A DNA stretch of 64,000 bases from Rosistilla ulvae (lineage in GTDB: Bacteria; Planctomycetota; Planctomycetia; Pirellulales; Pirellulaceae). Position 1 is the first letter of the stretch, and every line of letters starts with the position of its first letter. Under the pieces are notes generated by a model. That model was not told the DNA's origin. It searched no databases and saw nothing but the letters and a program-made list of their open reading frames with translations. Positions 2,753-56,703 of this stretch are shown piece by piece. The position numbers and the translations under genes were made by a program. Location of the stretch: positions 682,001-746,000 of the forward strand of contig NZ_CP036261.1 of NCBI RefSeq assembly GCF_007741475.1, given 5' to 3'.

Positions 2753-2767
2753 CCCCTGCCCTGCTCC
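2753..2767 (+). repeat. C-rich dispersed motif, copy 1
   Basis: CCCCTGCCCTGCTCC between two convergent genes. It matches the recurring intergenic motif C(n)TGCCCTGC(C/T)CCG, here with the CTCC variant. Confidence 0.75.
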
Positions 2768-2780
2768 ATTGTTTTGGAGC

Positions 2781-4367
2781 TCAGGAAGATTTCGCCATCG
2801 CCGCCGGTTTGCCGATCCGGTCACGCAGTTCGGCGAATCGATCGGCGGTTCCGAGTTCGATCCAGTTCCAGAACTCGAAGCGGTCTTTGTCGAAGTCGCC
2901 GAGATCGTTTTTGTACAGCCAGATTCCTTGGCGTGCCGCCAGCAGGATCTGGTGGGCGTTAAGGACCTTGCCGTAGGATCGTGCTTGCCGGAAATCGACG
3001 TCTCGTTGTCGCTCCGAGAGGATATCTAGTTTAGCTTCGATCAGAATCGATACCGTAGTCTGGCCGTTGTGCGCTCGAAGTCCAATCGCGTAATCGGGGA
3101 TGATCCGTTCTCGGCGGCCAATTTTGACCGTCAGTTGACGAACGTAGTCCGGCGTCGCGTATCCCAGCCTTTCCAGGAGCGGTTCGATCAGTTGTGTCTC
3201 GACGTCCCGTTCGTTTTTCAGATTGAGGTCAAGGGTCGGCAGGTCTGCGGGTGCTGACGGGAGGATTGATGTGTCGAATCCTTTATCCGCGGCCATCTCG
3301 AGGATAGCGTTGTATTGCGATGTTGGGATCGGTTTCCCGCCGCGACCTTGAAATCGCGCGCGAACCGCTGGGGTGTCCGCGAATGTTGGGTGGACTGATA
3401 GTTCGCTGAATGGGATGTCGGGGATTTTGATGGGGCGAGAGATCCGCGATGTTGAATAGTAATAAAAAAACGGGTCGACGAAGCCGGGAGCGACCGCTCG
3501 CCAGATCGAATGGACGCAGCTGCGAGGCGACGAGCACCACAAGACGACGATATCTCCCGGTCTTGTTTCTACTCCACATTGCCAGAAGGAGACGTCGGTC
3601 GGTTGGGCGTTGTCGACGAAGTCGAAATCTTCGTGGGTTCCGCGACCGCCGATCACAAACCAGACGCGAGACGCTGCCGGGAGCTCGTTGTGGTGTGTTG
3701 CAAGCTTCAGATCTTTAAACGCGAAGTCGTAAAGGAAAGCGTTGAATTCGGCGGGCGTTAGTCCGTGTGCGGTTCGGAATTTTTGGAGTTGCTCGTTGAT
3801 GCGTGCGTAATAAATGGCGCGTTCGCGTTCTTGCCGTTTGCCCGGAACGGGCGGGAGTTCGATTCCGTAGTTTCGGCAGATGGTTGAAAACTGATCGAAG
3901 CGATAGCTGAAGAAATAGGGTGCAAAAAGTTCTGGCCATCGCATGTGAAGCCCTGCGGAAATATGAGCTATCAGCGTGTAGATCTCCGAGTAGTATCGTT
4001 TGGATTCGTCCTCGCCTTTTGCGTCGTTAAGTATTGAAAAGTAGAAAGAATCAGTGTCGTCGAACTCAATCACGATCCCATTGTCGACGATCTCTTCAAA
4101 TAGATTTATTGCTGCGTCTTGCGATGGGATTTCAACGTCACGCACTAGCTGGTTGATGAACGTTGCAATATCTATCGGCTCATCGAAGAAAGTGTTGTCG
4201 CGGTTGTCGTTGTACTGCCGCATCCAGCGGAGTTCGTGCTCGAAGTTCTGAGGGGTATCGAGTTCCGCTAGTTGTTGAAGGTGCGAGATCAATGGCCGGC
4301 TGATCGCCTCTTTTCCTTCGTCGGATTGTTTGTAGAGATCCCATGCGAATGAAGAAAATCGTGACAT
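2781..4367 (-). CDS. EVE-domain / PD-(D/E)XK (HsdR_N-like) nuclease, putative modification-dependent restriction enzyme
   Basis: A 528-residue protein in three parts. Residues 1-230 are mostly helical and include a WPELFAPYFFSYRFDQF segment. Residues about 235-355 look like an EVE (PUA-like) domain, with VWFVIGGRG, GDIVVLWCSSPRSCVHSIWR and a PIKIPDIPFSEL stretch. Residues about 385-510 resemble the type I restriction HsdR N-terminal nuclease, with PDYAIG (Asp near 425) and ILIEAK (Glu 444, Lys 446) forming a PD-(D/E)XK site. EVE domains bind modified bases, so a stand-alone type IV-like restriction role is inferred. The start at 4367 has a strong GGAGG eight bases upstream. No methylase, specificity subunit or helicase is adjacent. 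By eye its base composition is less GC-rich than its neighbours, suggesting transfer. Confidence 0.7.
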   Translation of the reverse strand: MSRFSSFAWDLYKQSDEGKEAISRPLISHLQQLAELDTPQNFEHELRWMRQYNDNRDNTFFDEPIDIATFINQLVRDVEIPSQDAAINLFEEIVDNGIVIEFDDTDSFYFSILNDAKGEDESKRYYSEIYTLIAHISAGLHMRWPELFAPYFFSYRFDQFSTICRNYGIELPPVPGKRQERERAIYYARINEQLQKFRTAHGLTPAEFNAFLYDFAFKDLKLATHHNELPAASRVWFVIGGRGTHEDFDFVDNAQPTDVSFWQCGVETRPGDIVVLWCSSPRSCVHSIWRAVAPGFVDPFFYYYSTSRISRPIKIPDIPFSELSVHPTFADTPAVRARFQGRGGKPIPTSQYNAILEMAADKGFDTSILPSAPADLPTLDLNLKNERDVETQLIEPLLERLGYATPDYVRQLTVKIGRRERIIPDYAIGLRAHNGQTTVSILIEAKLDILSERQRDVDFRQARSYGKVLNAHQILLAARQGIWLYKNDLGDFDKDRFEFWNWIELGTADRFAELRDRIGKPAAMAKSS

Positions 4368-4441
4368 GCTGGGAGCCTCCGCCGGTCGGTTCCGCAATTA
4401 GTGAATGTGCAAGAGTTGTGTAGGCCAGCGATTATAAACCG

Positions 4442-4456
4442 CCCTGCCCTGCTCCG
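4442..4456 (+). repeat. C-rich dispersed motif, copy 2
   Basis: CCCTGCCCTGCTCCG, 75 bases upstream of the minus-strand nuclease start, on the + strand. Confidence 0.8.
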
Positions 4457-4657
4457 TGTTTTGGGAGACGCGGAATTGTTGAGTAGCCAAGGGTGGTAAG
4501 TTGGGCTGCGGTTCCGGTGTGCCTGGGGCTGGCGCTGGCTTGCTTTGGAGTTTGCTGCCGTTCGGGGCATTAGGTCCATGTGGTCGTGCCGGCCATGTGA
4601 ATCGCGCAGTCGACGATATGTGGTAGGTTCCAGGTCCGGTTGGTTGCGGTGTTCTGC

Positions 4658-4876
4658 AGTCGCGAAGGCGACGGTATTTGATAGCCTGGGACGCAAGTCT
4701 CAGATCCGGTGGACGATGTTGTTTAGAAGTCGCGAAGGCGACGGCATGAGTTTTGGTCTGGTCCGTCGGGCGATCGCATGTCGTCGCGTTCGCGACTTGC
4801 TGGGTTGGGATTGAGGTGGCGTCGGCGTACTTGTGACTTGCGTCCCGGGCTGTTGCATGTCGTCGCGTTCGCGACT
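4658..4876. repeat. Cluster of four palindromic units, two direct and two inverted
   Basis: Units AGTCGCGAAGGCGACGGTAT (4658-4677) and AGTCGCGAAGGCGACGGCAT (4728-4747) are followed by two inverted units of the form ATGTCGTCGCGTTCGCGACT (4778-4797 and 4857-4876). Each has a GTCGC core that can fold on itself, and direct and inverted copies can also pair with each other. The pattern resembles a small REP/BIME cluster. I saw no further copy elsewhere in the window. Confidence 0.7.
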
Positions 4877-4930
4877 GGTGGCGATGCCCGTGGGCTGGAG
4901 GTTGTGTGGGGGGGGCAAGATTTTTGTCTG

Positions 4931-4945
4931 CCCTGCCCTGCTCCG
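4931..4945 (+). repeat. C-rich dispersed motif, copy 3
   Basis: CCCTGCCCTGCTCCG, 30 bases beyond the end of the minus-strand desuccinylase-like gene. Confidence 0.8.
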
Positions 4946-4974
4946 ACTGGGCTGGGGCTGTGTTGAGGTTTGGC

Positions 4975-6060
4975 TCAATCGACGTTTTCGTTGTTGTCTT
5001 CGGCGGGAGCGTCGACGACTTGGATGTTGGTTGCCAGGTGTTCGTGAGCGGTTCGTTGGACCTCGTCGCCGGCGACTTGTTTTTCGTGTCGGCGGACCGA
5101 TTTGGGGTTCGACAATCGGCCGATGTGGACCACCGGTTCGCCTGGTTGGACGGCGGGCAGCGTGGTCATGCCGATGATGATTCCCGAGAAGGGAGCCTCC
5201 AACCGGTTTTGGTCTTCGGCTAACAGATTGCTGTTCGTGGCGATCGCTTGTCCTTTAACGATGCTGTCGCCGGGCGAGACGTGCATCGCGAGGAAGCCGC
5301 CTCGCTCGGCGCGGATCCATTTGGTTTCGCGAATCGTCGCCTGGGTGTCGGGAATGTCCGGTTCGCCCGACATCATCTTCAGCTCCATCAGCACGTTGAA
5401 GATCCCGCGGGTCATGCATTCGACGACCGACGATTCAACTTTCCAGACCTCGCCTCCTTCGACGATGATCGTTGGGCAGCCGGCGCGAGTCGCTTCGCGG
5501 CGGAGCGAGCCTTTGGGGCCTTTGGTTTGCAAGATGATTCCCGATCCGAAGGCTTCGGCCATGCGGCGGCAATCGGGATGGGAGAGGTCGGCTCGGACGT
5601 TGGGGAAATTTGTCCGCCGGACCGCCGCGGTGTGCAGGTCGATGCCGAAGTCGCAGCGGGCGATCAGCGATTCGAAAATCACTTTGGCGAGTCGCGAGGC
5701 CATGCTCCCCGAGGCCGATCCGGGAAAGCAGCGGTTCAAATCGCGGCGATCGGGCAGGTAGCGAGAGTGCCGTTCAAATCCGAGCATATTCAGTACCGGA
5801 ATCATCAGCACGGTGCCGGACTGCAGCGACCATTCCTTGTCCGATAGCATTGTCCGAATCGCTCCGGTGCCGTTGAGTTCGTCGCCGTGCAGTGCGGCGG
5901 TGACAAAGACGGTCGGGCCTGGTTGCAGTCCGCGGCGGATGTTGACTGGAATCGAAACGTTTCGGCTGCTGTAACTTTCACTGACCACCAATTCGGTGCT
6001 CAGCGACTCTCCCGGGGCGATATCGTGGCCGAACCAATTCTGGGTTTCCGCGGCGCTCAT
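4975..6060 (-). CDS. Succinylglutamate desuccinylase/aspartoacylase-family (M14-like) hydrolase
   Basis: Zinc-dependent amidohydrolase-like protein of 361 residues from the ATG at 6060 (MSAAETQNW). Longer upstream starts read through unrelated sequence. The family signature is clear: TAALHGDELNG with the HxxE zinc pair (about residues 56-59), DRRDLNRCFPG, GIDLHTA carrying the third zinc ligand, and IIVEGGE near the catalytic Glu. After residue 270 there is a beta-rich domain with APFSGIIIG, like the barrel-sandwich C-terminus found in many members. The substrate (an N-acyl amino acid or similar) cannot be told from sequence. It is divergent from the mechanosensitive channel gene. Confidence 0.85.
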   Translation of the reverse strand: MSAAETQNWFGHDIAPGESLSTELVVSESYSSRNVSIPVNIRRGLQPGPTVFVTAALHGDELNGTGAIRTMLSDKEWSLQSGTVLMIPVLNMLGFERHSRYLPDRRDLNRCFPGSASGSMASRLAKVIFESLIARCDFGIDLHTAAVRRTNFPNVRADLSHPDCRRMAEAFGSGIILQTKGPKGSLRREATRAGCPTIIVEGGEVWKVESSVVECMTRGIFNVLMELKMMSGEPDIPDTQATIRETKWIRAERGGFLAMHVSPGDSIVKGQAIATNSNLLAEDQNRLEAPFSGIIIGMTTLPAVQPGEPVVHIGRLSNPKSVRRHEKQVAGDEVQRTAHEHLATNIQVVDAPAEDNNENVD

Positions 6061-6263
6061 TTTCGGTTTCTTGGGCTGGATTGTGGAAAAAACACGTGGC
6101 AACGACTCAATATAGCAAGTCGAAGCCTGGGCGCGTGATACGTCTTTGGCGGGCCCAATTCGGGCGACTCGAATTCGACTTTCCTCGCTTCTCCAGGGTT
6201 GATAGTGTGCGCCTGAGCAGAGGTCTCTCATCTCTTCCCACACTTCTCCCGCTATCAAAGTCA

Positions 6264-9200
6264 ATGCGTTTCAATACTCCGCTTCGATTTGTTTGCTGCT
6301 GTCTATTAGGTCCACTTGGACTGGCCGTAGCGCAGCCTGCTGAGAACGGTTGGCGGATGCCGCCCGTTGCAAGCAATCCCGTTGCCGTACCCGCAGCGAT
6401 GCCGGTGCCACCAGCGGGCGCGATGCCTGTTGTAGCCCCGGGTGCAGTCCCTGTCGCGGCACCGGTGGAGTCGCAGCGCGTGGTGCCAGCAAGCTTTAAT
6501 GAGTCGCCGTCGCTCGAGACGGCGGTGGTGACGCGCGAGTTACTGGCGTCGGAGTTGGCGGCGATCGAAGCGACGACCGATCTGGCGGAGGAGATTCGTA
6601 AAGCTTGCACCGAGCGAATAAACAAAGCGAAGGAATGGATCGACAGCGAAGAGGCGTCGCGGAAGCGTCAGCAGGAGATCGAGGCCTATCTGCCGACGAT
6701 CGGCGATCTTGTCGCGGAGACCAAGGCGGCGCTCGAGAAGCCTGCCGATGCCGAGTTTGGAGCGAACCCAAGCGGCAATACGATCGCAGAACTGGAGAGC
6801 CAGTTGGCGGCGCTGCGTCAGCAGGTGGAAGCGGATGAAGCGCAGTTTGCAGCTAAAGGGAAAGAGCTTGAAGGGCGGACCGCGAGACTGGCGGATCTGG
6901 CAAAAGAAGTTGTCGAACTGGAACAGAAGATCGCAGAAAACGCCAAGCAGGCTGCGGCAGCAACTGGTACCGATTTAAACGCTCACGTGCAAGCCTTGGA
7001 ACTGAGGGCCAAATCACAGTGTCGGCAACAGCAGTTGGTGACGACCAAGTTGGAGCGGCGGCGGTTGGACGAGACGGGGACGTTGTTGCCGTTAGAGCAC
7101 GATTTGGCGCAGCGCAATCTGAATGGTCGCAAACGGATGTTGGCGCGTTGGCAGACGGCGATCGACCAGTGGCGGAAAGAGGAGTCGCTGCGTCAAGCGA
7201 CCGAAGCGCGGCGGATCGCCGAGACATCGCATCCGGCTTTGAAGTCGTTGGCTGAACAGAATGCGGAGATCGCAGAGCGCCGGATCGCCACGGCAGCGGG
7301 GATCGAACGCGTCACGAAAACGATCAAAGAACTGAAGGAGAAGATCCAGCAGTACGAGGCGGATTTCGAGACGCTGCGCGACAAGGTCGAGCACGCGGGA
7401 ACGACATCGACGACCGGGTTGTTGTTGCGCAAGCAACGCAGCGAATTGCCGCGGATGTCGGAATTCGAGGAGCGAACGAAATACATTCAAGCGGAGATGC
7501 CGGCGGCGCATCTGCAGTTGACCGAATGGAAACAGATGCGGCGCGCCGTCGCCGATCCTGAGGAAGCGGCGGCGGAGATGTTCGATTCGCTCGACGCGTC
7601 GTTGGGAGATTACGATCGTCAGCAAGTCATCGACGTCCTGGTACGCGTGCTCCGCGACCGCCGCGATCTGCTGGCCAAAGCGATCCCCGATCAGGATACG
7701 CTGCTGCAGGATTTGAATGAACTGGAACTTGTCGATCACCGATTGGAAGCATTGGTTGAGGAGTTTCGCGAGTTTCTGAACCAACGCGTGTTGTGGATTC
7801 GCAGCAGCGATGCGATCGAATTAGAGGATGTGCGGGCCGGAATTCAGGGGCTCGGTACGTTGGTCAATCCCGTTCGTTGGGGACAGGTGTTGCGTGTTGC
7901 AGGGGTCGATCTGTTGCGACGTCCCGCGGCCGCTCTTTCGCTGTTGGCGTTTGTGATCCTGTTGATCATCTTCCGCGCTCGCTTGCGGCAGACGCAAAGC
8001 AATCTGTCCGATCCGCCGGCTGCCGGTCAAGAGGCGAAGTTCTCGCGCTACGCCGCTGCGTTTATGATCGCTGTGGTCTTGTCGGCTCGCTGGCCTGCCC
8101 TGCTGTTGGTCGTCGGATATCGCTTGCGGACCGCGGCGGCATCGACCGAATGGACGCAAGCTGTCGGCGACGCCTGTCTGACGATGATCCTGTTTCTGTT
8201 GGGCTGCGAGTTGTTGCGCGAACTGTGTCGCAGCGAGGGTGTCGGCGAGAAGGTGTTTGGTTGGCCCGAGCGGGCGACCGCGTCGGTTCGCAATACGTTG
8301 GAGATCACAGCACTGGTCGGAACACCGATCTTTGGGTTCTTGCTGCTGTCGCAGTTCGGCGAATTGGCGGACCAGCAAAGCTCGCAGCGGTTGTTGTTCA
8401 TCTCGATTCTGGCTCTATTTGTTTTGCAGATCGGTTGGTTGGTGCGACCTCGCGGGCCGTTGATGAAATGTCTGTCGGCGGATTCGCCGCAATCGCTTGT
8501 GGTGCGATTCAAGAAGCCGATCTGGTGCGCCGTCGCTGGCGCACCGCTGGCGTTTGCGATCCTGTCGCTGGTCGGATATCACTTCTCTGCCTATCAGTTG
8601 TCGGGCCGTTTGGCCGAAACGGGAGCTGCGGTGGTGGCGGCGATCGTCCTCTATTCGCTCGCCCTACGATGGTTGGAAGTGATTGGATACAACCGCGCAC
8701 TGCGAGATGCTCCGGCGGCGGTACGGCACGACGAGGAGCGGTTGGTGATCGATTCGAGCCTGTCCGAGGAGAGCGTGGTTGTTGAGCCCGAACCGGTTGC
8801 GACAGTTTCGATGCACGCATCGGCCGACAGCGAATTCCGCGACCTGTTGCGGTACGCGGGGATCATGCTGTTGGTCTGCGCCGGATGGTTTATTTGGTCG
8901 GAAGTCTTTCCGGCCCTGCGAGTGTTGGACCGCGTGGTGCTGTGGCAGAACATCGAATCGGTCGCCGAAACGGTTGTCGATTCGGGGGGCGGCGAGTCGA
9001 TCAAGCTGAGCGACCGAACGGTCCCGACGACACTGACCGATGTCTTGATGGCTGTGTTGGTCGTCGTGGCCACGATGATGGTCGGTCGGCGTTTGCCGGG
9101 CGTCGTTGAGTTTGTGGTGTTGGAGCGGTTGCCGATGGAACAAGGAGGCCGCCAGGCAGTGGCGATCTTGGTTCGCTACGCGGCGACGCTTGTCGGGCTG

Positions 9201-9854: not shown

Positions 9855-9879
9855 TTCGGCGGGGGAGGAATTTCTATCG

Positions 9880-9897
9880 CCCCCCTGCCCTGCCCCG
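9880..9897 (+). repeat. C-rich dispersed motif, copy 4
   Basis: Six C then TGCCCTGCCCCG, 26 bases after the channel gene stop. Confidence 0.85.
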
Positions 9898-9912
9898 CAG
9901 TGCAAATCACGG

Positions 9913-9987
9913 TTTCAATTTGAGGTATCAGCCGCCACGCGTTTGCGTCCGGTTGTCCAGGGGAGCCGGACGCTAACGCGTGGCGGC
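9913..9987. repeat. REP-like hairpin, copy 1
   Basis: TTTCAATTTGAGGTATCA leads into a stem (9931-9952 with 9966-9987) of 22 bp with one mismatch, carrying GCCGCCACGCG and its complement CGCGTGGCGGC. A near-identical copy lies at 19083-19167, including the same leader. The structure is typical of REP elements mobilised by RAYT transposases; no such transposase is in the window. Confidence 0.85.
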
Positions 9988-10016
9988 TAATCTGGCTAAG
10001 CGCAGCCAGTTAACGG

Positions 10017-10031
10017 CCCTGCCCTGCCCCG
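10017..10031 (+). repeat. C-rich dispersed motif, copy 5
   Basis: CCCTGCCCTGCCCCG, 70 bases before the corA start. Confidence 0.85.
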
Positions 10032-10101
10032 AGATGGAAATTGTGTTTCGCAATTCGGTCGCCTAGATTAGGGTTTACATTGCCCATTCTAGGATCCGAT
10101 T

Positions 10102-11295: not shown

Positions 11296-11320
11296 TTGGG
11301 CTTCCCGTCGTTTCGCCTGT

Positions 11321-11337
11321 CCCCCTGCCCTGCCCCG
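11321..11337 (+). repeat. C-rich dispersed motif, copy 6
   Basis: Five C then TGCCCTGCCCCG in the gap between convergent corA and dtd. Confidence 0.85.
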
Positions 11338-11398
11338 CGGTTTGTATGGCCGGGCGTTTGACGAACTTCACGCGGTGGTGTTGCGGATTGCTTCCCGT

Positions 11399-11848: not shown

Positions 11849-11949
11849 GATGTCTCTTTCCTTTTCTTCACGATTGCGGTGGCGATGAACCGATCGGCCT
11901 CAGTCGATACAATAACGGGGGCTGATTGTAGGGCAAAACGCGACATCCG

Positions 11950-11964
11950 CCCTGCCCTGCTCCG
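11950..11964 (+). repeat. C-rich dispersed motif, copy 7
   Basis: CCCTGCCCTGCTCCG in the divergent gap, 34 bases before the DUF1559 gene start. Confidence 0.85.
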
Positions 11965-11997
11965 TTGTTGCTTCATCCTTTTTGTGTTGCCGTTCCC

Positions 11998-15102: not shown

Positions 15103-15122
15103 CCCCCCCCTGCCCTGCCCCG
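15103..15122 (+). repeat. C-rich dispersed motif, copy 8
   Basis: Eight C then TGCCCTGCCCCG, ending 39 bases before the uronate isomerase-like start. The long C-run plus C3 and C4 runs gives G-quadruplex potential on the minus strand. Confidence 0.88.
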
Positions 15123-16470: not shown

Positions 16471-16690
16471 TCCCGGCTGCGCTGAGCGGGTGAAGTTGCG
16501 CAGCCCTTCACCCTCCCTCAAACGAAGTTTGAAAGGGAGGGTCGAACGAGCGAAGCAAAGTTCGGGGAGGGGAGTCCGTGATGCAATTCCTCGCCGTTTG
16601 ATCCTGGCGGTAGGCCCTCCCCGAAAAACTCGCTAAACGCTTGTTTTTCGACCCTTTCGGCTGCGCCAGGCGGGTGAAGTTGGGCGATGG
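16471..16690. repeat. MITE-like repeat family, two partial units
   Basis: The right part of a unit (16471-16573, ending GAGCGAAGCAAAGTTCGGGG) is followed by the left part of another (16614-16690, beginning CCCTCCCCGAAAAACTCGCT). Full-length relatives are at 44182-44503. The terminal segments CCCTCCCCGAA and TTCGGGGAGGG are complementary, so each intact unit folds into a long imperfect hairpin. Confidence 0.75.
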
Positions 16691-16748: not shown

Positions 16749-16769
16749 CCCCCCCCCTGCCCTGCCCCG
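16749..16769 (+). repeat. C-rich dispersed motif, copy 9
   Basis: Nine C then TGCCCTGCCCCG, ending 27 bases before the start of the unknown gene at 16796. This is the longest C-run of all copies. Confidence 0.88.
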
Positions 16770-19082: not shown

Positions 19083-19167
19083 TTCAAATTGAGGTATCAG
19101 CCGCCACGCGTTAGCGTCCGGTTCCCTCCCCCGCCTGGCAACCGGACGCTAACGCGTGGCGGCTGAT
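19083..19167. repeat. REP-like hairpin, copy 2
   Basis: A TTTCAAATTGAGGTATCA leader, then a perfect stem of 28 bp (19096-19123 with 19140-19167) around a C-rich 16-base loop. Almost identical to the copy at 9913-9987. It could also stop transcription, but it is T-poor. Confidence 0.88.
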
Positions 19168-22102: not shown

Positions 22103-22121
22103 CCCCCCCCTGCCCTGCCCC
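22103..22121 (+). repeat. C-rich dispersed motif, copy 10
   Basis: Eight C then TGCCCTGCCCC followed by A instead of G. It ends 5-14 bases before the two possible starts of the FAD-protein gene, so it overlaps the place where a ribosome site would be. Confidence 0.85.
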
Positions 22122-23560: not shown

Positions 23561-23963
23561 CCTCGCCCCTGGTGGCGACTGCTTAGGCGCGTCTGTTTCC
23601 TACCAGTCATCTCGCTCGCGATCGGGGTTCCGCCTGCCGATCGCAGCCAGTTTGCCCGCGATCGGATGGCGTGAAGGTACCACCCTGCCCTGCCCCGATC
23701 TCTTGTGTCGCCGCGCGGGATACCAGATTTTTGTTAAAGTCTGGAGAGTATCGATAGTCTGACTGGTTTCCGTTTCGCCTGTTCTCGGCGTGTTGGTGAG
23801 TAATGTTGATTCGCGGGGCGGTTCGCGAAGGACAGGTTAAGAGTGAGCGAATTTTGTCGTGACTGGCGGTCGCGATTGTTGCCATTGAGGCACTATGGCT
23901 GATAGAACTTTCGGTCCCCTGAAGTTTCCCGCCCAAGACTGCCTCCCTCAGTTTAAAGACAAC
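23561..23963. other. 403-base gene-free stretch
   Basis: Holds C-rich motif copy 11 and presumably the promoter of the PHP-domain gene. I see no convincing coding frame. Two in-frame ATGs (23895 and 23964) precede the PHP protein; the second is preferred because it places the twin-arginine motif close to the N-terminus. Confidence 0.6.
23683..23697 (+). repeat. C-rich dispersed motif, copy 11
   Basis: CCCTGCCCTGCCCCG, between two + strand genes and far from either start. Confidence 0.82.
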
Positions 23964-28908: not shown

Positions 28909-31035
28909 TCAGTTGGCGCGTGCCAGGTTCTGACGCTTGAGCGCTTCGACGTAGTCGCGAGTGATGTTCAAGACTTCGTCGTTGTAGAAGTTGTGGCGGA
29001 AGACTTCATCGTCGGGCATCTCGGCGTCCAGCAATTGCTTCTCCTCTTCCTTCTGTGAATCGAGTTCTTTGCGTCGGGCGAAGAACTTGTCTTCTTGCAG
29101 CGAGACAAACTTCTCCGATTTCTGTCGTTGGTACGATTCGATACGACGCAACAGGTCGACGAAGTCCTCGGACTGTTCGATCCGTTTTGCCGATCCGGTG
29201 CGGACGGTATTCAAGACATCGTTGCCCAGCATGCTGTATTTACGATGCTTCGTCTTTTCGACGCGGTCGTGCTCGAGTGCGTACTCCAAATCCGCTTCGC
29301 CAACATCCATGTGCGTGGTCAGCGAAGGCAAGATGATGTCGGCTTTGACGCCTTCCTTTTGCGTGCTTTCGCCATCGGGCAGGTAGAATTGCTGCAGCGT
29401 GACTTTCAGAGCGCCGAAGTTAGGGGCGCGATTGCTGTGGAGGATCTCTTGGCCAAGATCCATCAGCGTTTGTACGGTCCCTTTCCCGTGGGTTGCCACG
29501 TCGCCAACAACGATTCCACGACCGTAGTCTTGGATCGCACCGGCTAGAATTTCACTGGCACTTGCGCTGAACTTGCTGGTCAGTACGACCAACGGTCCGT
29601 CCCAGGCAACGCCGCTGTCTTCATCCGCATAGGGAGTGACGCGTCCATCGCTGTCCTTCACCTGGACAACGGGGCCTTGGTCGATGAACAGGCCGGTCAG
29701 GTTGATCGCTTCGGTCAAGCTGCCGCCACCGTTCATCCGCAGGTCCAAGATAACCGCGGCGATGCCATCGTCTTTGAATTCGTTCAAGCGGTCGCGAACG
29801 TCCTTGGTGCTGCTGCGGTAATCGCGGGCATTGCGGCGAGCGGCTTCCATGTCCAGATAGAAGCTTGGTAGGCTGATGTAGCCGATTTTCATCTTGGGGC
29901 CGGTTTCGCCGTCGGTCTCGACGACCTGGCTGCGAGCAGCGCTGTCTTCGAGTTCGACCTTGGCACGCGTGATCGTGAGGATCTTGGTCTCGCCGGTGCC
30001 GCCCGATTTGATGCCCAGTCGGACAATCGTGCCAGCGTGGCCGCGGATTTGTTCGACCACGTCGTCCAGTGGCATTTCGACGATGTCGACCATTTCGCCA
30101 TCGGTCCCCTGCCCTACGCTGACGATATAGTCGTCGGCTTTGAGTTCGCCCTGCTTGTCGGCCGCTCCACCAGGGATCACTCGCGAGACGACGGTGTGGC
30201 CATCTTTTTCACGCAGTGCCGCTCCGATCCCTTCCAGGTTCAGACGCATCATGATGCGGAAGTTGTCGAGCGATTTGGGCGACATGAATGTTGTGTGCGG
30301 ATCGTAGCTGGTGGTGACCGAAGTCAGGAACAGTTCCAGCAGTTGATCCGAATCGGTCTCGTGCCAACGCTTTTGGTTTCGCTTGTAACGACGCAGCAGT
30401 TTGGCTTTGGGGTCTTCCAGGTCTTCTTTGGTCGGTTTGTATTCTTCGCCCGATTCTTCCGCCTTGCGTTTCCGCTCGACGGCTTCATCTTTGGCGACCA
30501 GCAGGTTGAATTTAATCTGACGACGCCAACGGTCCTTCGCCTCTTCAGGAGATGTTGGATAGCGGGCCGCATCGGGTTCCACGACGATCGATTCGTCGAC
30601 GGTGAAATCGAAATCTTCGGTCAACAGTGTTTCAGCAACCGCGACGCGTTCATCGATGCGTTGCAGGAAACGTTTGAAGACGACATAGGCGACATCGAGG
30701 TCGCCTCCCTTGACCATGTCGTCGATCGTCAAGTTGTACTTGCTGAATTCATCAACATCCGATTGGTAGAAGTAAAGTTTCATCGGATCGAGCGCCTTCA
30801 GGAACAACTCCATCGCGCGGGTACTCAGTTCGTCGTTGAGTGCGGTACGCGATACGTGTCGACGTTCCAGCAAGGCTGCGACGATCTTCGCCACATTCTG
30901 GTCGGTCTTGGTGGGGGCGACCAGATCTTCGGCATCGCAGCGTGTTGCCTGCGGGGCGATGAATGAGATCGTGCAGAAGGCCAACAGCAGCAGCGGTCGG
31001 GCAAAGCGAGTTTGGGGAGACGTCATTGAAGCCAT
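28909..31035 (-). CDS. Carboxy-terminal processing protease (tail-specific protease, S41)
   Basis: Exported serine protease of 708 residues from the ATG at 31035. A longer start at 31101 and a shorter one at 31026 are possible. The signal-like segment is RFARPLLLLAFCTISFIAPQ. A Prc-type N-terminal helical domain (about 35-230) precedes a PDZ domain (about 245-345, with GIGAALREKDGHTVVSRVIP). The S41 catalytic domain shows TSKFSASASEILAGAIQDYG with the nucleophilic Ser and HGKGTVQTLM with the catalytic Lys. The C-terminal 130 residues are Glu/Lys-rich. Length and order match E. coli Prc (682). It likely degrades envelope proteins with exposed C-termini. Confidence 0.93.
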   Translation of the reverse strand: MASMTSPQTRFARPLLLLAFCTISFIAPQATRCDAEDLVAPTKTDQNVAKIVAALLERRHVSRTALNDELSTRAMELFLKALDPMKLYFYQSDVDEFSKYNLTIDDMVKGGDLDVAYVVFKRFLQRIDERVAVAETLLTEDFDFTVDESIVVEPDAARYPTSPEEAKDRWRRQIKFNLLVAKDEAVERKRKAEESGEEYKPTKEDLEDPKAKLLRRYKRNQKRWHETDSDQLLELFLTSVTTSYDPHTTFMSPKSLDNFRIMMRLNLEGIGAALREKDGHTVVSRVIPGGAADKQGELKADDYIVSVGQGTDGEMVDIVEMPLDDVVEQIRGHAGTIVRLGIKSGGTGETKILTITRAKVELEDSAARSQVVETDGETGPKMKIGYISLPSFYLDMEAARRNARDYRSSTKDVRDRLNEFKDDGIAAVILDLRMNGGGSLTEAINLTGLFIDQGPVVQVKDSDGRVTPYADEDSGVAWDGPLVVLTSKFSASASEILAGAIQDYGRGIVVGDVATHGKGTVQTLMDLGQEILHSNRAPNFGALKVTLQQFYLPDGESTQKEGVKADIILPSLTTHMDVGEADLEYALEHDRVEKTKHRKYSMLGNDVLNTVRTGSAKRIEQSEDFVDLLRRIESYQRQKSEKFVSLQEDKFFARRKELDSQKEEEKQLLDAEMPDDEVFRHNFYNDEVLNITRDYVEALKRQNLARAN

Positions 31036-31290
31036 ACTTGAATTCCGATTTGGTAAAGACACGTGGCGTCGGACAGGCGAACCTTGATCCACGGTGTTCA
31101 TAGTAGAACAGGGTTCAAGATATCACAAGTTCGATCGGCTGATAGCAAATAGGCCCCGTTGCGGTTGGCGGGGAGGAGTTGGGCCGAGGCAAGGCGGCCG
31201 ATTCGTTTTGGCAGCGGGATGCAGATCGGCTTGGCGTGAGGCGAGTCTAGTGAGCCTTTGCGGCGATTTTCCTGTTGGAAATCGTCGGTT

Positions 31291-39046: not shown

Positions 39047-39410
39047 CCAACGACATCCTTGTCACGGTGATTGAAGCGATACGTTGGGGAATCTCCCATC
39101 GAGTCCAAACGCTGTCAAGTTCATTCGCTGCGATCGTCGGCGATTCGGCGGTCACGAGACCCTTTGGTCTGGCGAATCGCTGCGCCAGGACAAGTATTTG
39201 CTAGCGTTGGCGGGGTCGCGATGGAGTCGCTGGCAATGCGGAACCGCCGCTGCGTCAATCTGTGACATAGGTTTCAGTTGACCCTTGCGGCGGTGGCAGT
39301 TAGAAAGATGCATGGTTTTTGCAGCTTTGTCGGTGGGCGATCGATCCTGGTCCGCTGCTGCTGTTCACGCCCCCCCCTGCCCTGCCCCGCCTTTTTGTTG
39401 GTACCACACG
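39047..39410. other. 364-base divergent intergenic region
   Basis: Lies between the minus-strand phosphatase gene and the plus-strand haem-domain gene, so it should contain two promoters. The only clear element is C-rich motif copy 12 near its right end. Short open frames here look spurious. Confidence 0.55.
39370..39389 (+). repeat. C-rich dispersed motif, copy 12
   Basis: Eight C then TGCCCTGCCCCG, ending 21 bases before the start of the haem-domain gene. Confidence 0.88.
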
Positions 39411-47091: not shown

Positions 47092-47198
47092 TGGGGGAGA
47101 GACTCGCGAAGGAACGGGGATCGCAGCCGGCGGTGCGGCCGGCCGAGTACCGGAGATTATAAGTTCCCGCCGGAGCAAATGGAGGTAACAGGCCTCGG

Positions 47199-47215
47199 CC
47201 CCCTCCCCTGCCCCG
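47199..47215 (+). repeat. C-rich dispersed motif, copy 13 (variant)
   Basis: CCCCCTCCCCTGCCCCG, which lacks one G of the usual spacer. Same strand as the other copies. Confidence 0.6.
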
Positions 47216-47386: not shown

Positions 47387-47481
47387 TTTGAACCGTGGGG
47401 CCCCTCTTTATTAGGTTGATTGCTGCAACACGGTTGCCTCGATTCCCGCCTCTCTCCCACGCGATTCAGGAAATTTCTTCG

Positions 47482-50400: not shown

Positions 50401-50607
50401 GCGCGACTGGTTGAAGGGGCGTGGGTGCAGTTGGCACTGATCGATCCGGAGACCTCGACGCTGCTGCGTTACGTCAAAGGAAAGTACCAACCGTATACGC
50501 CTGAATCCACCGAACTGCCGGTGGTCGATTCGTCGATCCAGTGGTACCGCGGACAGCGTGGCCATCTTGGTTTTGCCTCGGTCTCCGATCCTGCCAAGCC
50601 TGCATAA
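47482..50607 (+). CDS. dabA: DabA-type inorganic carbon transporter subunit (DUF2309)
   Basis: 1041 residues from the ATG at 47482 (AGGAAA nine bases upstream). DabA is the carbonic-anhydrase-like subunit of the DAB complex, which takes up CO2 and converts it to bicarbonate inside the cell, driven by a membrane proton-conducting partner. The zinc site is visible: FCIDDREES gives Cys and Asp (about 519 and 521), and FFGHGSGS supplies His (about 706), with NCGACSGG giving Cys about 15 residues later, the spacing known from characterised DabA. The protein is longer than the roughly 800-residue proteobacterial form. The two antiporter-like genes follow. Confidence 0.92.
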   Translation: MHDATSILSPAETSDGNGSGRCDPDSLRKAIDHAIHFLPAQGPISIFVHHNTLHSMEDLPFEEAVIEGGKRFGCEPYLAEDRYRSELHRGRISVDDLRQVLMDDLDEGADELVASFGTRYTLQLAMLQMTLHSAPDAELHWLLAETDLLKRFQAEISPQRREQMIAQTRSWVMRHRDLSRRDGAVSESTSQLPAVVDSVIDQSRDNRIQSWTDPQWEAFVLRLLWQVCRDGVQAANLPEPEFVAPVRLRDLLLAATGEDIDVSVNEVLIRFCGGFLDQGLADWSLPDREQGFAVAFANLFLQPMAVKPAWMKGIGATLQPIAAGGFDPLASIAESLQAMEVPHADVEEKLCATLLALRGWAGMIWQTEANTPWLPHPIPAGSLDEYLAIRLILERLAIADLGQRQFGTRQMSEIRRLAETRLPGRRGPSIDERTYTVFQLAQAGGWTPESLVSMTGEQWACLVREIGLFDSTARRRILHLAYERHYQVAALDALALHSARRRTAERPAAAKPAFVAIFCIDDREESFRRHLEEVDPECETASAAGFYAVAMYYQGADHAHYRPLCPAIVTPKHYVREEPLFSAVDDSQRRAQRRRQIGWFTHQVHANSRTLLGGWVTGIFGAVATFPMVARILAPRLTSRIRESVGTFVRPPATELHIERTAEQPGSDPEALGYSLDEMAGIVVRILQDIGCVDNFPPILLFFGHGSGSLNNPHESAYNCGACSGGRGGPNARAFATMANDPRVRRLVADQGIEIPEDVRFVGAFHNTCNDAVEYYDLDLLPRTHRPLFRRIEQSVNETRARNAHERSRRFESAPLDLSPAAALEHVEQRAEDLSQARPEYNHATNALVTVGRRDWTRGLFMDRRVFLTEYDPAVDDENVGVLTRILQAAIPVCAGINLEYYFSTVDTEGYGCGSKLPHNVASMLGVMTGAASDLRPGLSQQMVEIHEPVRILFVIETTPEKMDKIIAANPGIARLVEGAWVQLALIDPETSTLLRYVKGKYQPYTPESTELPVVDSSIQWYRGQRGHLGFASVSDPAKPA

Positions 50608-50673
50608 CATCGCGGCCGTCCAAGCCCCGATCGATCCCAATCATTCCCGTTTCTGTCGTCTTTGCGAATCACT

Positions 50674-52068
50674 ATGAATTATCTCGACACGACTTTTCAG
50701 GCACTCGGAACCGCGGTCGTCGCAAGTCCCGCGATCCTGCTGGCGATCCTGGGGCTGGCAGCGTTGGTCAATTGGCAGTTGAGCGAGGCGACGATCTCGC
50801 GGTTGACTCAGGCTGCGGTGCTGTTTTCGTTGCTGCCAGCGATCGGCATCTTGGTGATCATGTTGGCCACCGGGATCCGTTACGTTCCGATCGAGCTAGG
50901 GAATTGGGTGTCGATCCCGGAGCAGGAATTTCATTTTCATTTGAAGTTCGTGTTCGATCGGTTGAGCATCCCGTTCCTGATGCTGTCGTGTGTGTTGTGT
51001 GGCGTCGTCGGCGCATTCACTCGCCGCTACCTGCATCGTGAAGAGGGGTACCGGCGGTTCTTTTTGTATTACGCCGTCTTCTTCTGCGGGATGGTGTTGT
51101 CGTCGTTGGCCGGCACGATCGAAGCGTTGTTTGTCGGCTGGGAACTGGTGGGACTGTCGTCGGCCCTGTTGGTCGCCTACTTCCACGAACGCGTCAATCC
51201 GGTTCGCAATGGTCAGCGGGTGTGGTCGATCTACCGTTTGTCGGACGCTGCATTTTTGATCGCCGCACTGATGATGCATCACTTGAGTGGCGAGGGGGAC
51301 TTTGGCGGTTTGATGAGTTCGGGCGTGTGGCCCGAAGGAACCGCGGCAATCAGTTCGACGGAGGCGTTGTGGGTTGGTTCGTTGTTGCTGGTGGCGGCTG
51401 CGGGCAAATCGGCGCTGTTTCCCTTTAGCGGCTGGTTGCCGCGAGCGATGGAAGGACCGACGCCGTCGAGTGCGATCTTCTACGGGGCGCTGTCGGTTCA
51501 CTTGGGAGCGTTTTTGTTGTTGCGTTTGAGCCCGATCCTGGACGCTTCGCTGACGCTGCAGTTGATGGTGATTGCGTTGGGCGTCGTTTCGGCAGCTTGT
51601 GGTGCGGTGATGTCTCGCGTGCAGAACGATATCAAGGTTTCGCTGGCCTACGCTTCGCTGACACAAGTTGGAATCATCGTTGTCGAGATCGGATTGGGCC
51701 TTCGCTACTTGGCGTTGATCCACATCATCGGCCACGCCTGCATGCGAACGATGCAGTTGTTGCGAGCGCCGACGCTGTTGCGCGACTACAACGAATTGGA
51801 AAACAAGATCGGCACACGTTTGCCGCACCAGGCTTGGGCTGGTGCCGCCTCGCTGCCGGCGAGCGTGCAGCGGTGGTGCTATCGGTTTGGATACGATCGC
51901 GGTTTCATGGACCTCGCCTTGGACAAGTGGATCGTGCGGCCGTTTTTGCAAACGTTTGGCTGGTTCGATCGCTTGGAGCGGCGGATCACCGATTCGATTT
52001 CTCATGAGCCATCGCGCGAATCGGATCGCGTCGAACCACATCCCGAGGATCTGCAGAACGTCGCTTGA
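50674..52068 (+). CDS. NuoL-like proton-conducting subunit, probable DabB partner
   Basis: 464 residues from the ATG at 50674. It is a polytopic membrane protein of the complex I antiporter type (NuoL/NDH-5). The characteristic helices include [37 protein letters not shown] and [20 protein letters not shown], the last containing the LPxAMxGPTPxS motif with the Lys and Pro of the proton path upstream. A soluble C-terminus of about 65 residues follows. In DAB systems such a subunit (DabB) energises DabA. It begins 66 bases after dabA and is followed by a second antiporter-like gene. Confidence 0.85.
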
Positions 52069-52163
52069 GCGACCGCGGCGTCCAGTCGCCGCTGATTCAC
52101 CGTCGTATCCGATTCCTGTTGCCTTCATCCGCTCGATCAATCTTCAACCTGTCGAACCGCCAA

Positions 52164-53621
52164 ATGCCTGAACTCCATTTTCCTTGGATCGAAGTTTCCA
52201 TCCTGGTTCCATTATTTGGAGCCTTGTGGATTCACCTGCTTGGCAACCGCGAAAGCGTTCTGCAGCATGCGATTGCGATCTGCGGGGTGACCCTAGCGTT
52301 GACCGTCGGTGAACTTGTCGACTTTGTCTCGATCGGGTCGTTCGAAGCGCACGACCATTGGCTGTTCCTCGATTGGTTGTTTCAACGCGATATATTTGTC
52401 GTCGATGAACTGAGCGCGTTCCAGTTGCCTCTGGCTGCGTTGATTTTTCTGGTCACCGTGATGTCGACGCTGCGGACCAAAGCGCCACGCTTTTCGTTGA
52501 AGCTGACGCTGATTTCCGAGTCGCTGGTGCTGGCGACGTTCAGCTGTCGATCATCCTGGACCTTGATCGCACTGCTGATCGCCGCGACGATCCCGCCTTA
52601 TCTGGAGCTTCGCAGTCGGCAGCGTTGCACGCGGATCTACGTGCTTCACATGGCAGTCTTTGCTCTGCTGTTGGTCGTGGGATTCGCTTGGTTAAGCCAC
52701 TCCGACGGCTCCTCGACACAGGCCTTGATCGCCGGCGCGTTGCTGACCGCGGCGGCGCTTTTGCGCAGCGGCATCTTTCCGTTGCACCTGTGGATGACCG
52801 ACCTGTTTGAGAAGGCGACCTTCGGGACAGCGATCCTGTTCACCACGCCGTTGGTTGGGGCTTATGCGGTGATGCGGTTGGTGTTGCCGATGGCTCCGTC
52901 GTGGGCGTTGCAAAGTATCGCCGTGCTGTCGTTGGTGACAGCGGTTTACGGCGGGGCGATGGCGTTGGTTCAACGCGAGGCGCGGCGGATGTTCTGTTAT
53001 TTATTGTTGAGTCAATCGTCGTTGGTGTTGGTCGGACTGGAACTTGTCACACCGATCGGTTTGACCGGGGCGTTGTGCATGTGGTTGTCGGTGGGACTAT
53101 CGCTGACAGGTTTTGGGATCACGCTGCGATGTATCGAAGCGCGAATCTCGCGGGTGTCGCTGGTCGATTATCACGGCTTGGCTCGCCAGATGCCGATGCT
53201 GTCGGGCTTCTTTCTGTTGACCGGTTTGGCGTCGATTGGGTTTCCCGCGACGGTTGGGTTTGTCGGCATGGAGTTGTTGATCGAAGGGGCGGTCGATGTC
53301 TATCCACTGGTTGGCACGATGGTCGTGATCGCTGCGGCGCTTTGTGGAATCACCGTGCTGATGGCTTACTTCCGCGTCTTTACCGGACACCACAACCGGA
53401 CTCTGGTGCCAATGCATGCTCGCCCCGCCGAACGCGTGGCGGTACTGATTCTGACGCTGTTGATTCTCGGTGGCGGTCTGGTGCCGCAGCCGGGCGTCGC
53501 GTCGCGATATCACGCCGCCGAAGCACTCACCCGGCAACGGCAGACCAATCCGATGACCGAGCAGCAGGTCGGCGAATTGGAGATCGAAACGGTGGCGATC
53601 GGCAAACACTCAGCTGAATAG
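52164..53621 (+). CDS. NuoM/L-like proton-conducting subunit, second DAB partner
   Basis: 485 residues from the ATG at 52164 ([10 protein letters not shown]); a start at 52065 would overlap the preceding gene. Polytopic, with the antiporter-family segments [40 protein letters not shown] and [20 protein letters not shown]. It diverges from the standard motif, having [14 protein letters not shown] where NuoL/M have a KSAxxPFHxWLPDA-type sequence, so the conserved Lys is replaced. It may be a structural rather than proton-pumping subunit. Part of the DAB module. Confidence 0.8.
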
Positions 53622-53698
53622 ATCGAAGCGGACGCGGCGGATGACCGAAACCGCGGCGTTCAAATATGGCTTACACATTTTTTACGAAAGCAGATACC

Positions 53699-55735
53699 AT
53701 GAGCGCGCCTGTTGCATCCGACCGAGAGATCCCCTGCGGGAATTTGCAGGGTTTCAAGCGTTACTTTAAGCACGACTTTATCTCTGGGCTGTTGGTCTTC
53801 CTGATCGCCCTCCCGTTGTGTTTGGGAATCTCGATCGCCAGTGGTTATCCGCCGATCGCCGGTATCTTTACGGCCATCATCGGTTCGGTCGTCGCCACGT
53901 TGATCAGCAATTCGGAGCTGACGATCAAGGGGCCAGCGGCTGGTCTGATCGTGATCGCGATCGGATGCATCAATGCGTTTGGCGGCGATGGAACGGTTGG
54001 CGGTTGGACCGAAACCGACATGGATGCCTATCGCGCGGCGTTGGCTGTGGGCGTGGCAGCGGCTGTGCTGCAGGTCTTCTTTGGAATCTTTCGAGCGGGC
54101 ATCTTGGGCGAGTTCTTCCCGATCTCGGCGGTCCACGGAATGCTGGCTGCGATCGGCGTGATCATTATCGCCAAACAGATTCCGGTGGCGCTGGGAGTGA
54201 GCGCGTCGGGAGGTCCGTTGGAACTGCTGCGGAAGATTCCGGAGTTCATCGCGACGGCGAACCCGGCGATCGCCGCGATCGGTTTGACGAGCGTGTTGAT
54301 CATGTTTGTCTGGCCTTTGGTCGTTCGGAAGTTTCCGGTGATGAAGGTCTTGCCCTCGCCATTGATCGTGTTGATCGTGGCGATTCCGATGGGCATGTCG
54401 TTCGATTTGATGCACGCCCACTCGTATACGCTGCAAAACCACGAGTATCAGTTGGGAGAGAACTATCTGGTTGCGATGCCCGACCGCGTCTTTGGGATGT
54501 TCGATTCCCTGACGACCCCCGATTTCAGCGCGTTGCAGCAGCCGTTTGCTTGGAAGTGGGTCTTTATGTTCTTCATCATCGGTAGCCTCGAATCGCTGCT
54601 GAGTGCCAAGGCGATCGACATCATCGATCCTTGGAAACGCAAGACGAACATGGATCGCGACATGGTCGCGGTGGGGATCGGCAACCTCGGTTGCGCGATG
54701 GTCGGCGGGTTGCCGATGATCTCGGAGATCGTGCGTAGTAAAGCGAACATCGACAACGGAGCCCGCACGCGGTTCGCCGACTTCTGGCACGGGATGTTCC
54801 TGTTGGTCTGCGTCGCGTTTATCCCGATGGTGCTGCACCGGATTCCGATGGCCGCGTTGGCTGCGATGCTGATCTACACAGGTTTTCGCCTGGCCCATCC
54901 GACCGAATTCATGAACGTTTGGAAGATCGGCCGCGAGCAACTTGTGATCTTTGTCGTCACGCTGGTCGCGGTGTTGGCAACCGATCTGTTGATCGGGATC
55001 GCGATCGGAATCGCGACCAAGGTTGTGATCCACCTGTCCAACGGTGTCTCGCTGCGTTCGCTGTTCAAACCGGAGATCGAACTAGCCGAAGACGATGGCC
55101 AGACGGTGCGGTTGACCGCTTACAATTCCGCTGTCTTCAGCAACTGGATCCCGATTCGTCGGCAGATCGAACGGCTGGGATTGGTGGAACGCAAGAATGT
55201 CGAACTGGATCTATCGAGTGTGCAATTGGTCGATCACACGGTGATGGACAAGTTGCATGAGATGGAAAGCGATTTTGAGCAGCAGGGGCTGACCTTCACC
55301 GCCATCGGGCTCGAGACGCATCAACCGTTTGCTGGCCACGCGCAATCGGCTCGCCGCAAGGGATTGTGGACCGCGCGACGGTTGACCGTGGTCTCGGAGC
55401 TCGAGAACCAAGCGATGCTCGAAGCGGCGTTGGTCCGCTTGGGAGCGAGCGGGTTTACGTCGATGCAGTGTGTGGGGGCGGGCCGCCACGAACTGCTTGA
55501 GAATGCAGGTCAGCCGAAGCCGATGGTGCGGATCGAAGTCATCGCTCCCCAAGAGGCATGCGAACAGATGATGAGCTATCTGCGTCGCGAGGTGCAACTG
55601 AAGCATCGCGTGACGTTTGCCGTCGAAACGGTGCAGGTCGCTCGGATGGATGCGTTTGATCAATCGGTGCCGACGATTCCGGCGGAGGCCCAGCCGAATG
55701 CCGATGAGTCGTCGCTGGAACCGGCGGCTCACTAA
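53699..55735 (+). CDS. SulP-family anion transporter with STAS and PII-like C-terminal domains
   Basis: 678 residues from the ATG at 53699; an ATG at 53666 is also possible. The SulP/SLC26 transmembrane domain (about 15-430) has [20 protein letters not shown] and [40 protein letters not shown] and [25 protein letters not shown] domain (about 460-560) includes [20 protein letters not shown]. The last 130 residues, with [20 protein letters not shown], look like a PII/ferredoxin-type regulatory domain. The gene follows the DAB module at 78 bases, and bicarbonate uptake (as for BicA) is the likely role. PII-like control by nucleotides is inferred. Confidence 0.85.
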
Positions 55736-55748
55736 ACCGCAAGCGAAT

Positions 55749-55778
55749 CAATCGTCGCCGAATTCTCGGCGGCGATTG
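55749..55778. terminator. Hairpin terminator between SulP and Rrf2 genes
   Basis: CAATCGTCGCCGA (55749-55761) pairs with TCGGCGGCGATTG (55766-55778), 13 bp with one wobble pair and a four-base loop, then TT. It sits between convergent genes and can serve both. Confidence 0.75.
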
Positions 55779-55785
55779 TTTCGGA

Positions 55786-56205
55786 TCATTCGATGCACTC
55801 TAGCTGTTGGCGGGTTGGGACGACATCGGCGAGCGTGACCGTGTCGAGGTAAGCTCGCTGCACTCGTTCGGCTTCCGCCAAGACGCCTTTGAGCTTGCAG
55901 AATGCGTCGATCGCACAGCCGCGATCGGTGCCGACGCAGGCGAGCAGGTGCAGGTCTCCCTCGATCGCTTGGATCACGTCGCCCAAACCGATCTCGTTTG
56001 GCGGGAGTGCCAGCTCGATGCCACCGCCGATTCCGCGGGTGCTGCGGATGTAGCCATGCCGCGCCAGCAGGTTGACGACTTTGGCGACGTGGTTGACCGA
56101 GATCCCAAACAGCGATGCGACATCGGCAACGTTGGCGCGGGAGGTTCGTGTCGCCAAGAACATCAGCGTTCGCAAAGCGTAATCGGTTTGCGTCGTGAGC
56201 TTCAT
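55786..56205 (-). CDS. Rrf2-family iron-sulfur regulator (NsrR-like)
   Basis: 139 residues from the ATG at 56205 (MKLTTQTDYALRTLMFLATR). The winged-helix N-terminus includes VADVASLFGISVNHVAKVVN and the glycine-rich wing TRGIGGGIELA. Three cysteines, in HLLACVGTDRGCAIDAFCKL (about 92, 99, 105), can hold an iron-sulfur cluster as in NsrR and IscR, and the spacing C-X6-C-X5-C is close to NsrR. NO or redox sensing is likely. The DUF542 gene is upstream on the same strand and is a typical NsrR target. Confidence 0.88.
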   Translation of the reverse strand: MKLTTQTDYALRTLMFLATRTSRANVADVASLFGISVNHVAKVVNLLARHGYIRSTRGIGGGIELALPPNEIGLGDVIQAIEGDLHLLACVGTDRGCAIDAFCKLKGVLAEAERVQRAYLDTVTLADVVPTRQQLECIE

Positions 56206-56279
56206 GATTGGAATGAGTCGAGGCGAGAGAAGCGGGCAAGATCTAGCAATCGCTAGCCTATTGCCGAAGTCGGCCGTCG

Positions 56280-56510
56280 TCAATTCGGAGCATCGCGCCG
56301 GCGACTGCCTTCTCGCTCTTCTGGAGGCGTGCGGATCATGTGGTAGAGCGTTTGTAGGACCTCCGAAGGGTTAAGCCCTCGATGCTGGCAAACGTACCGC
56401 AGCGATTTGCCGCCACAGCTGGTATCGAGCCCGAGTTGGTCGAACACGGGCATCGTCTCGGGATGCTCGATGATCCACTCGGGAATCGTCGTCTCTAGAT
56501 CGCAGTCCAT
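56280..56510 (-). CDS. DUF542 (ScdA/RIC N-terminal domain) protein
   Basis: 76 residues. It matches the N-terminal DUF542 domain of ScdA/YtfE-type iron-sulfur repair proteins: PEWIIEHPETMPVFDQLGLD (about 10-29), then TSCGGKSLRYVCQHRG with the conserved Cys pair. The C-terminal haemerythrin-like di-iron domain of YtfE is absent, so this is the stand-alone form. The Rrf2 gene follows 74 bases downstream. A role in nitrosative stress or di-iron repair is inferred from the pair. Confidence 0.82.
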   Translation of the reverse strand: MDCDLETTIPEWIIEHPETMPVFDQLGLDTSCGGKSLRYVCQHRGLNPSEVLQTLYHMIRTPPEEREGSRRRDAPN

Positions 56511-56688
56511 GCGTGAGATTGTAGCGGAGGAATTCTGGGGAGGGAAACGCCGCGGAAGCCCCTTGCTGGGGCTAATGCGCGGCAGTGCTCAGCCGAGTTG
56601 GCTGGCAGGCGTTAGCGCGGCGTTGCCGGAGGGAACCGGAGGCCATCGCATGGCGGATGGTACCTCGGTTTGAAACCCTGCTTATCCG

Positions 56689-56703
56689 CCCTGCCCTACC
56701 CTG
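56689..56703 (+). repeat. C-rich dispersed motif, copy 14 (variant)
   Basis: CCCTGCCCTACCCTG, lying between two minus-strand genes. The last block diverges from TGCCCCG. Confidence 0.6.

Follow-up and report, generated by a model that had tools for sequence, protein, structure and literature searches.

The systems closest to the element described here are the FtsK-orienting polar sequences (KOPS) of Escherichia coli and Pseudomonas aeruginosa and the XerCD/dif recombination site toward which they point. In PMC6199493, KOPS is given as GGGNAGGG, the GC-skew switch is placed on average 13 kb from dif as the published norm, and P. aeruginosa PAO1-UW is described as a strain in which segregation, not replication, ends at dif, with a GC-skew switch within 15 kb of the site. 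For Planctomycetes, Kono et al. 2011 (PMC3025954) report that dif prediction failed; candidates from small phyla were confirmed there by score, palindromy and position. Here, we analyzed a 64,000-nucleotide stretch of the planctomycete Rosistilla ulvae (the window), positions 682,001–746,000 of a single 7,475,804-base contig (NZ_CP036261.1; genome G000, contig C1), which carries a strand-biased, C-rich motif. We read this motif as the KOPS of an FtsK/KOPS/XerCD-dif system in a planctomycete family, with a predicted dif at window positions 1037–1064, and put the probability of this reading at roughly 0.93.

The likeness to the KOPS of E. coli and P. aeruginosa comprises the same 8-mer, the same orientation to dif and an FtsK γ domain that can be aligned. 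The locus differs from these systems in that polarity is strongest with C at the N position, overlapping doubles of the form GGGCAGGGCAGGG are frequent, and the copies are clustered near dif and enriched between open reading frames (ORFs), with no GC-skew switch at dif. With known XerCD/dif systems it shares the 11-6-11 layout, a conserved TTATGTT on the XerD side, one copy per genome and encoded XerC and XerD, whereas the XerC-side arm, AACGTCCGATAA, has diverged (5/11). As in PAO1-UW, dif is displaced from the replication-symmetry position, here relative to the skew origin; unlike in PAO1-UW, no switch is seen at dif.

The minus-strand form of the motif, CGGGGCAGGGCAGGG, contains GGGCAGGG, an 8-mer that fits the E. 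coli consensus, either singly or as an overlapping pair. The original prediction had counted 14 C-rich copies, all on the plus strand, and this excess is borne out by a search for TGCCCTGCYCCG with at most one mismatch, which returned 14 matches in the window, all plus, where 0.91 are expected and none of 100 shuffles reached 14. These matches are 13 of the copies then listed and a further one at 4929, which overlaps the copy at 4934; the remaining listed copy (56689) is degenerate and falls outside the one-mismatch set, yet is present in the sequence as described. The double form CCCTGCCCTGC has 12 window matches, all plus, against 0.05 expected. All 14 listed copies contain CCCTGCCC, which is GGGCAGGG on the minus strand, eight of them hold an overlapping GGGCAGGG pair, and the plus strand of the whole window carries 24 CCCTGCCC and no GGGCAGGG.

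The pattern extends beyond the window. In the 7.48-Mb genome, the double form occurs 33 times, and all 33 copies lie on the strand expected for one flip near 683 kb: 14 minus at 520–678 kb, 14 plus at 685–801 kb, and five that fit too, plus at 1.08–1.15 Mb and minus at 5.96 and 7.09 Mb. A chromosome-polarised motif, as opposed to a leader element, is what had been predicted. When all 6- to 9-mers were scanned over approximately 200 kb to either side (406 kb), with the flip point placed by hand at 683,050, the best-polarised 8-mer was GGGCAGGG itself, with toward/away counts of 36/2 on the left and 39/3 on the right. Sliding the flip point gave a best interval of 680,701–684,751, and 75 of the 80 copies in the 406 kb point toward this ~4-kb interval, with 5 pointing away. 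Because the window sits just right of the flip point, all of its GGGCAGGG copies are on one strand. The copies are densest within 10 kb of dif, at 7.5 per 10 kb, and number less than one per 10 kb beyond 100 kb, with 45 of the 75 toward copies within 50 kb. By a crude ORF caller, 41 of the 75 lie between ORFs, compared with 14.7% of the sequence, and in 51 named loci of the family (see below) the figure is 154 of 433 compared with 17.5%. As a positive control, GGGNAGGG within about 100 kb on either side of dif in E. coli K-12 gave 20 copies toward and 0 away. The sites in the window are listed below.

1037–1064, plus strand: candidate dif, ACGTCCGATAA-TGCCTC-TTATGTTGTAT, within the flip interval 680,701–684,751 and single copy in its own genome
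1037–1047, 1048–1053 and 1054–1064: XerC-type arm, centre and XerD-type arm of the candidate dif, by alignment to E. coli dif
Up to 919, and 1159–1893 (minus strand): neighbours of dif by Pfam, accA (end at 919) and a Colicin_V/CvpA-family gene
2754–2761, minus strand: KOPS GGGCAGGG
4442–4449, minus strand: KOPS GGGCAGGG
4931–4938, minus strand: KOPS GGGCAGGG
9883–9895, minus strand: overlapping double KOPS GGGCAGGGCAGGG
10017–10029, minus strand: overlapping double KOPS
11323–11335, minus strand: overlapping double KOPS
11950–11957, minus strand: KOPS GGGCAGGG
15108–15120, minus strand: overlapping double KOPS, G-run on the dif-proximal side
16755–16767, minus strand: overlapping double KOPS, G-run on the dif-proximal side
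22108–22120, minus strand: overlapping double KOPS, G-run on the dif-proximal side
23683–23695, minus strand: overlapping double KOPS
30107–30114, minus strand: KOPS GGGCAGGG, within minus-strand ORF 28909–31101
39375–39387, minus strand: overlapping double KOPS, G-run on the dif-proximal side
47201–47213, minus strand: GGGCAGGG (47206–47213) overlapping GGGGAGGG (47201–47208)
56689–56701, minus strand: GGGCAGGG (56689–56696) overlapping GGGTAGGG (56694–56701)
58583–58590, minus strand: KOPS GGGCAGGG, within ORF 57129–59390

The placement of the copies relative to genes bears on whether the motif could be an upstream leader or promoter element for plus-strand genes. Some copies do end shortly before plus-strand ORFs (11950 before 11965, 22103 before 22127), but those at 4442 and 4931 lie between minus-strand genes with their orientation unchanged, orientation tracks the side of dif, and the window has no Rfam match at or above a family's gathering score, so that a leader function is barely credible. 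The statement that every listed copy is intergenic stands for 11 of the 14; the crude ORF caller places the other three (16749, 39370 and 56689) inside TTG-start ORFs. An in-frame ATG follows the motif in two of these cases (16796 for 16749 and 39411 for 39370), so both copies can lie upstream of the true start, and the ORF covering 56689 may not be a gene, since its next in-frame ATG comes only at 57054 and it overlaps a longer minus-strand ORF (56718–57419). Conversely, a match near 30105 that had been put down to chance proves to be a CCCTGCCC (30107) oriented like the others, within a minus-strand ORF, and it may belong to the set.

Polarity of this kind could also arise passively, as a functionless product of a strand composition skew polarised by replication. 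Skew is common among G-rich oligomers, and the 55 other orderings of the letters of GGGCAGGG show a mild excess across the 406 kb, 616 toward and 413 away from dif. However, the top-ranked of these arrangements (GGCAGGGG, GGGGCAGG and GCAGGGGG) overlap extended KOPS, and neither GC nor TA skew changes sign, or much in size, across the flip. Since the sign of the skew is unchanged across 683 kb, strand skew would predict no flip at all, whereas GGGCAGGG is divided 75 to 5 and is enriched between ORFs. The earlier suggestion that the motif follows chromosome skew is thus unsupported on both counts, the GC skew across the flip (+0.077/+0.076) and the same-letter comparison (616/413 versus 75/5), and we consider a passive origin very unlikely. 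The four copies with runs of 8–9 C, which place four G-tracts on the minus strand, led to a further proposal, that these are G-quadruplex sites pausing forks or marking a domain. G-quadruplex motifs in the 406 kb point toward dif in 11 cases, nine of which contain KOPS, and away in two, but those without KOPS are split evenly, 2 toward and 2 away. Set against 75 toward KOPS, the nine KOPS-containing motifs also mean that most KOPS lie outside such motifs. The G-quadruplex potential looks incidental, and a role of this sort is scarcely plausible as the explanation of the motif.

We return to the reading of the motif as KOPS, for which the flip interval should hold a dif. A scan with the arms of E. 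coli dif scores the site at 683,037 (window 1037–1064) at 14 of 22 arm positions, and this candidate XerC/XerD site falls inside the flip interval, between accA and the Colicin_V/CvpA-family gene. Its layout is 28 bp, 11-6-11, related to known dif, with partly palindromic arms; their self-complementarity is 5/11 in the site itself, 6/11 in the family form and 6/11 in E. coli.

The genome also encodes the proteins that would act on these sites. FtsK, at 4.538 Mb, has 4TM, α, motor and γ domains, the last matching PF09397 with an E value of 7.6e-23. The γ domain aligns with solved FtsK entries including 2j5o and 2ve8/2ve9, the latter of which we take to be P. aeruginosa entries that include a KOPS complex. 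The gene for XerD (611 kb) is 72 kb away from dif and that for XerC is at 4.708 Mb; the two proteins score above the NCBIfam equivalog cut-offs (TIGR02225, 357.4 bits against 329.6, and TIGR02224, 352.7 bits against 335.15, respectively). In Planctopirus limnophila, ftsK is reported as essential (PMC10632474), and PMC12283558 describes the FtsK of this species as having no dispensable domain and also as being without PF17854, termed the γ domain in that paper. Pfam names PF17854 the α domain and PF09397 the γ domain, and the FtsK of the window's genome carries both.

By analogy with E. coli and Pseudomonas, FtsK stationed at the division site would load on KOPS in one orientation and pump DNA toward dif, its γ domain probably reading GGGCAGGG as 8-base polar signposts. 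In the window, just right of dif, each GGGCAGGG would direct the motor leftward to dif; on the far side of the site, almost every copy is on the other strand and would direct it rightward. On reaching dif, FtsK would meet and activate XerC and XerD, and chromosome dimers would be resolved before the cells separate.

The arrangement is conserved in relatives. We searched for the family pattern CGTCCGATAATN5TTATGTT together with a reversed control and found it in 152 of 170 family genomes, representing 51 of 55 genera, with one copy in 151 genomes and two in G101; the reversed control gave 0. A shorter dif core occurs in 88 of 294 genomes of the phylum, with 8 matches of its reversed control in 7 genomes. 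In a search of 60 family genomes, we read four from four other genera out of several with a clear flip among the matches listed, and 4/4 hold the same site in the flip region; one of them has a single wrong-strand GGGCAGGG ~1 kb beyond the site. Among named accA loci (the best 80 of 377, labeled Rhodopirellula, Rubripirellula, Stieleria, Roseimaritima, Pirellula or Pirellulaceae), the full pattern is present in 70, and of the 552 GGGCAGGG near the site in these loci 527 point toward it and 25 away; from these labels we take the family to be Pirellulaceae. The site is on the accA strand in 52 loci, a median of 155 bases beyond the accA match (349 copies toward and 13 away), and inverted in 18, with a median of ~1.5 kb (178 toward, 12 away); the site's own orientation makes no difference to GGGCAGGG polarity.

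Several observations weigh against our reading. The support is at the level of sequence, from which we infer binding, the direction of pumping and recombination. The arm identity of the candidate dif is not outstanding in itself, as many places in the 406 kb equal or beat 14/22, and its XerC-side arm agrees with E. coli dif at 5/11 positions, compared with 9/11 on the XerD side. Far from dif, GGGCAGGG is weakly polar: with the arms divided at parS, 20-kb segments gave 10 toward and 6 away in 35 right-arm samples and 14 toward and 4 away in 27 left-arm samples, or 24 and 10 over all 62, and whole-arm polarity rests on these samples, in which it is weak, and on the 33 double copies. The remaining N-variants show lower polarity, with toward/away counts of 28/11 for GGGGAGGG, 9/2 for GGGTAGGG and 5/4 for GGGAAGGG. 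The exact dif pattern is missing from 18 of the 170 family genomes, seven of them from one genus, and from 10 of the 80 named loci, some of which end early at contig ends. Finally, the GC skew is +0.077 to the left and +0.076 to the right of dif (100 kb each), with no switch; likewise none is seen in GC or TA skew at four-fold sites (averaged across gene strands) or in intergenic DNA, and in 51 named loci the gene-strand-corrected four-fold skew shows no step at dif (0.012 left, 0.019 right). The seven genomes of one genus (g37) without the exact pattern are G037, G074 and G076–G080, and G075 of the same genus has it; those that lack it may have a variant dif site.

In an E. coli K-12 control, the mean GC skew of 10-kb blocks passes from +0.018 to −0.043 across dif. 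Among the 51 named loci, 48 have a higher raw GC skew on the left of dif than on the right, a difference without a counterpart in the gene-strand-corrected values. A two-shift fit to the raw GC-plus-TA skew of 82 sampled segments of the window's genome has its up-shift at 0.05 Mb (range ~7.3 to 0.1) and its down-shift at 3.3 Mb (range ~1.2 to 3.4). The cost of forcing a shift, in error-variance units, is 46–53 at dif, 44–76 at parS and 52–69 at the full-length dnaA. In this genome dif is therefore not at a GC-skew shift point, which is a usual correlate of dif and not part of the mechanism, and without a switch at dif strand skew does not explain the KOPS polarity. We also discounted 683 kb as a replication origin: the motif points toward it as KOPS would toward dif, the position holds a dif-like site, and the fit rejects a skew shift at it. 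For G157, the fit again puts the up-shift at the start of the contig and is compatible with a down-shift at dif; the skew of G018 is weak. Over the whole R. ulvae chromosome, GC and TA skew have an unusual shape, peaking in the region of dif and becoming weak, or changing sign, near parABS.

The fitted skew origin lies near a dnaA-like/dnaN/dciA locus, 0.68 Mb (~9% of the chromosome) from dif. Two DnaA-type genes are present, a short one (363 aa, DNA-binding domain) next to dnaN and dciA at the contig start (1–3013) and a full-length one at 5,547,911–5,549,431; adjacency of dnaN to the short gene was established in the window's genome. At least two DnaA-domain matches occur in each of 18 complete genomes, with 8 in G157 and 12 in G160. 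Three exact DnaA boxes (TTATCCACA) lie within ~1.9 kb around the dnaA-like gene, one of them, by eye, inside the upstream coding region, and one lies ~0.3 kb upstream of the full-length dnaA; these counts do not settle the origin. No exact box was found in the 4 kb examined at each contig start and end of G157 and G018. At 4.81 Mb there are two parS sites, with parA and parB no more than 6–7 kb away; of 26 genomes, 5 have an exact parS, 3 a reversed-control site and all 26 a ParB. Across 18 single-contig genomes, taking the best ParB match (two genomes have a second) and chromosome sizes that are mostly rounded, parB is 34.7–48.4% of the chromosome from dif (maximum 50), the full-length dnaA 28–50% and the dnaA-like gene 7.6–38.8%. 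Thus parB and the full-length dnaA tend to sit across the chromosome from dif, which is the ordinary arrangement, while the skew of the window's genome indicates another place. Replication may initiate close to dnaN, with the segregation axis separate from it, or close to parABS, in which case something else would have caused the skew.

The missing skew switch may be what made the prediction of Kono et al. fail in Planctomycetes. Apart from that failed prediction, we found no paper on KOPS or dif for Planctomycetes in the open full-text literature, a scope that mostly excludes subscription papers, and the accessible parts of PMC10591338 and PMC7901474 describe neither for a planctomycete.

The window holds two other repeats. 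A REP-like hairpin lies between genes (9932–9986, 19101–19162 and 53431), with the 12-mer AACGCGTGGCGG on the plus strand at 9975, 19151 and 53431 and on the minus strand at 9932 and 19101. The repeated GGGAGGGTCGAACGAG occurs at 16535, 18416, 44284 and 44466, three times on the plus strand and once on the minus strand.

The planctomycete phylum is reported as being without FtsZ, and directed pumping toward dif would here take place in FtsZ-less cells. The locus provides a strong dif candidate, together with KOPS, for a phylum in which the published survey failed and in bacteria of that reported FtsZ-less kind. We advance tentatively, at somewhat less than even odds, the idea that this family sets its segregation axis, which runs from parABS to dif and its converging KOPS, without regard to the axis of replication, that selection maintains KOPS polarity around dif, and that these cells may depend on an FtsK pump with a road map separate from the replication strand. 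Since KOPS polarity and GC skew are here naturally uncoupled, it can be tested whether KOPS orientation is selected or inherited from strand bias.

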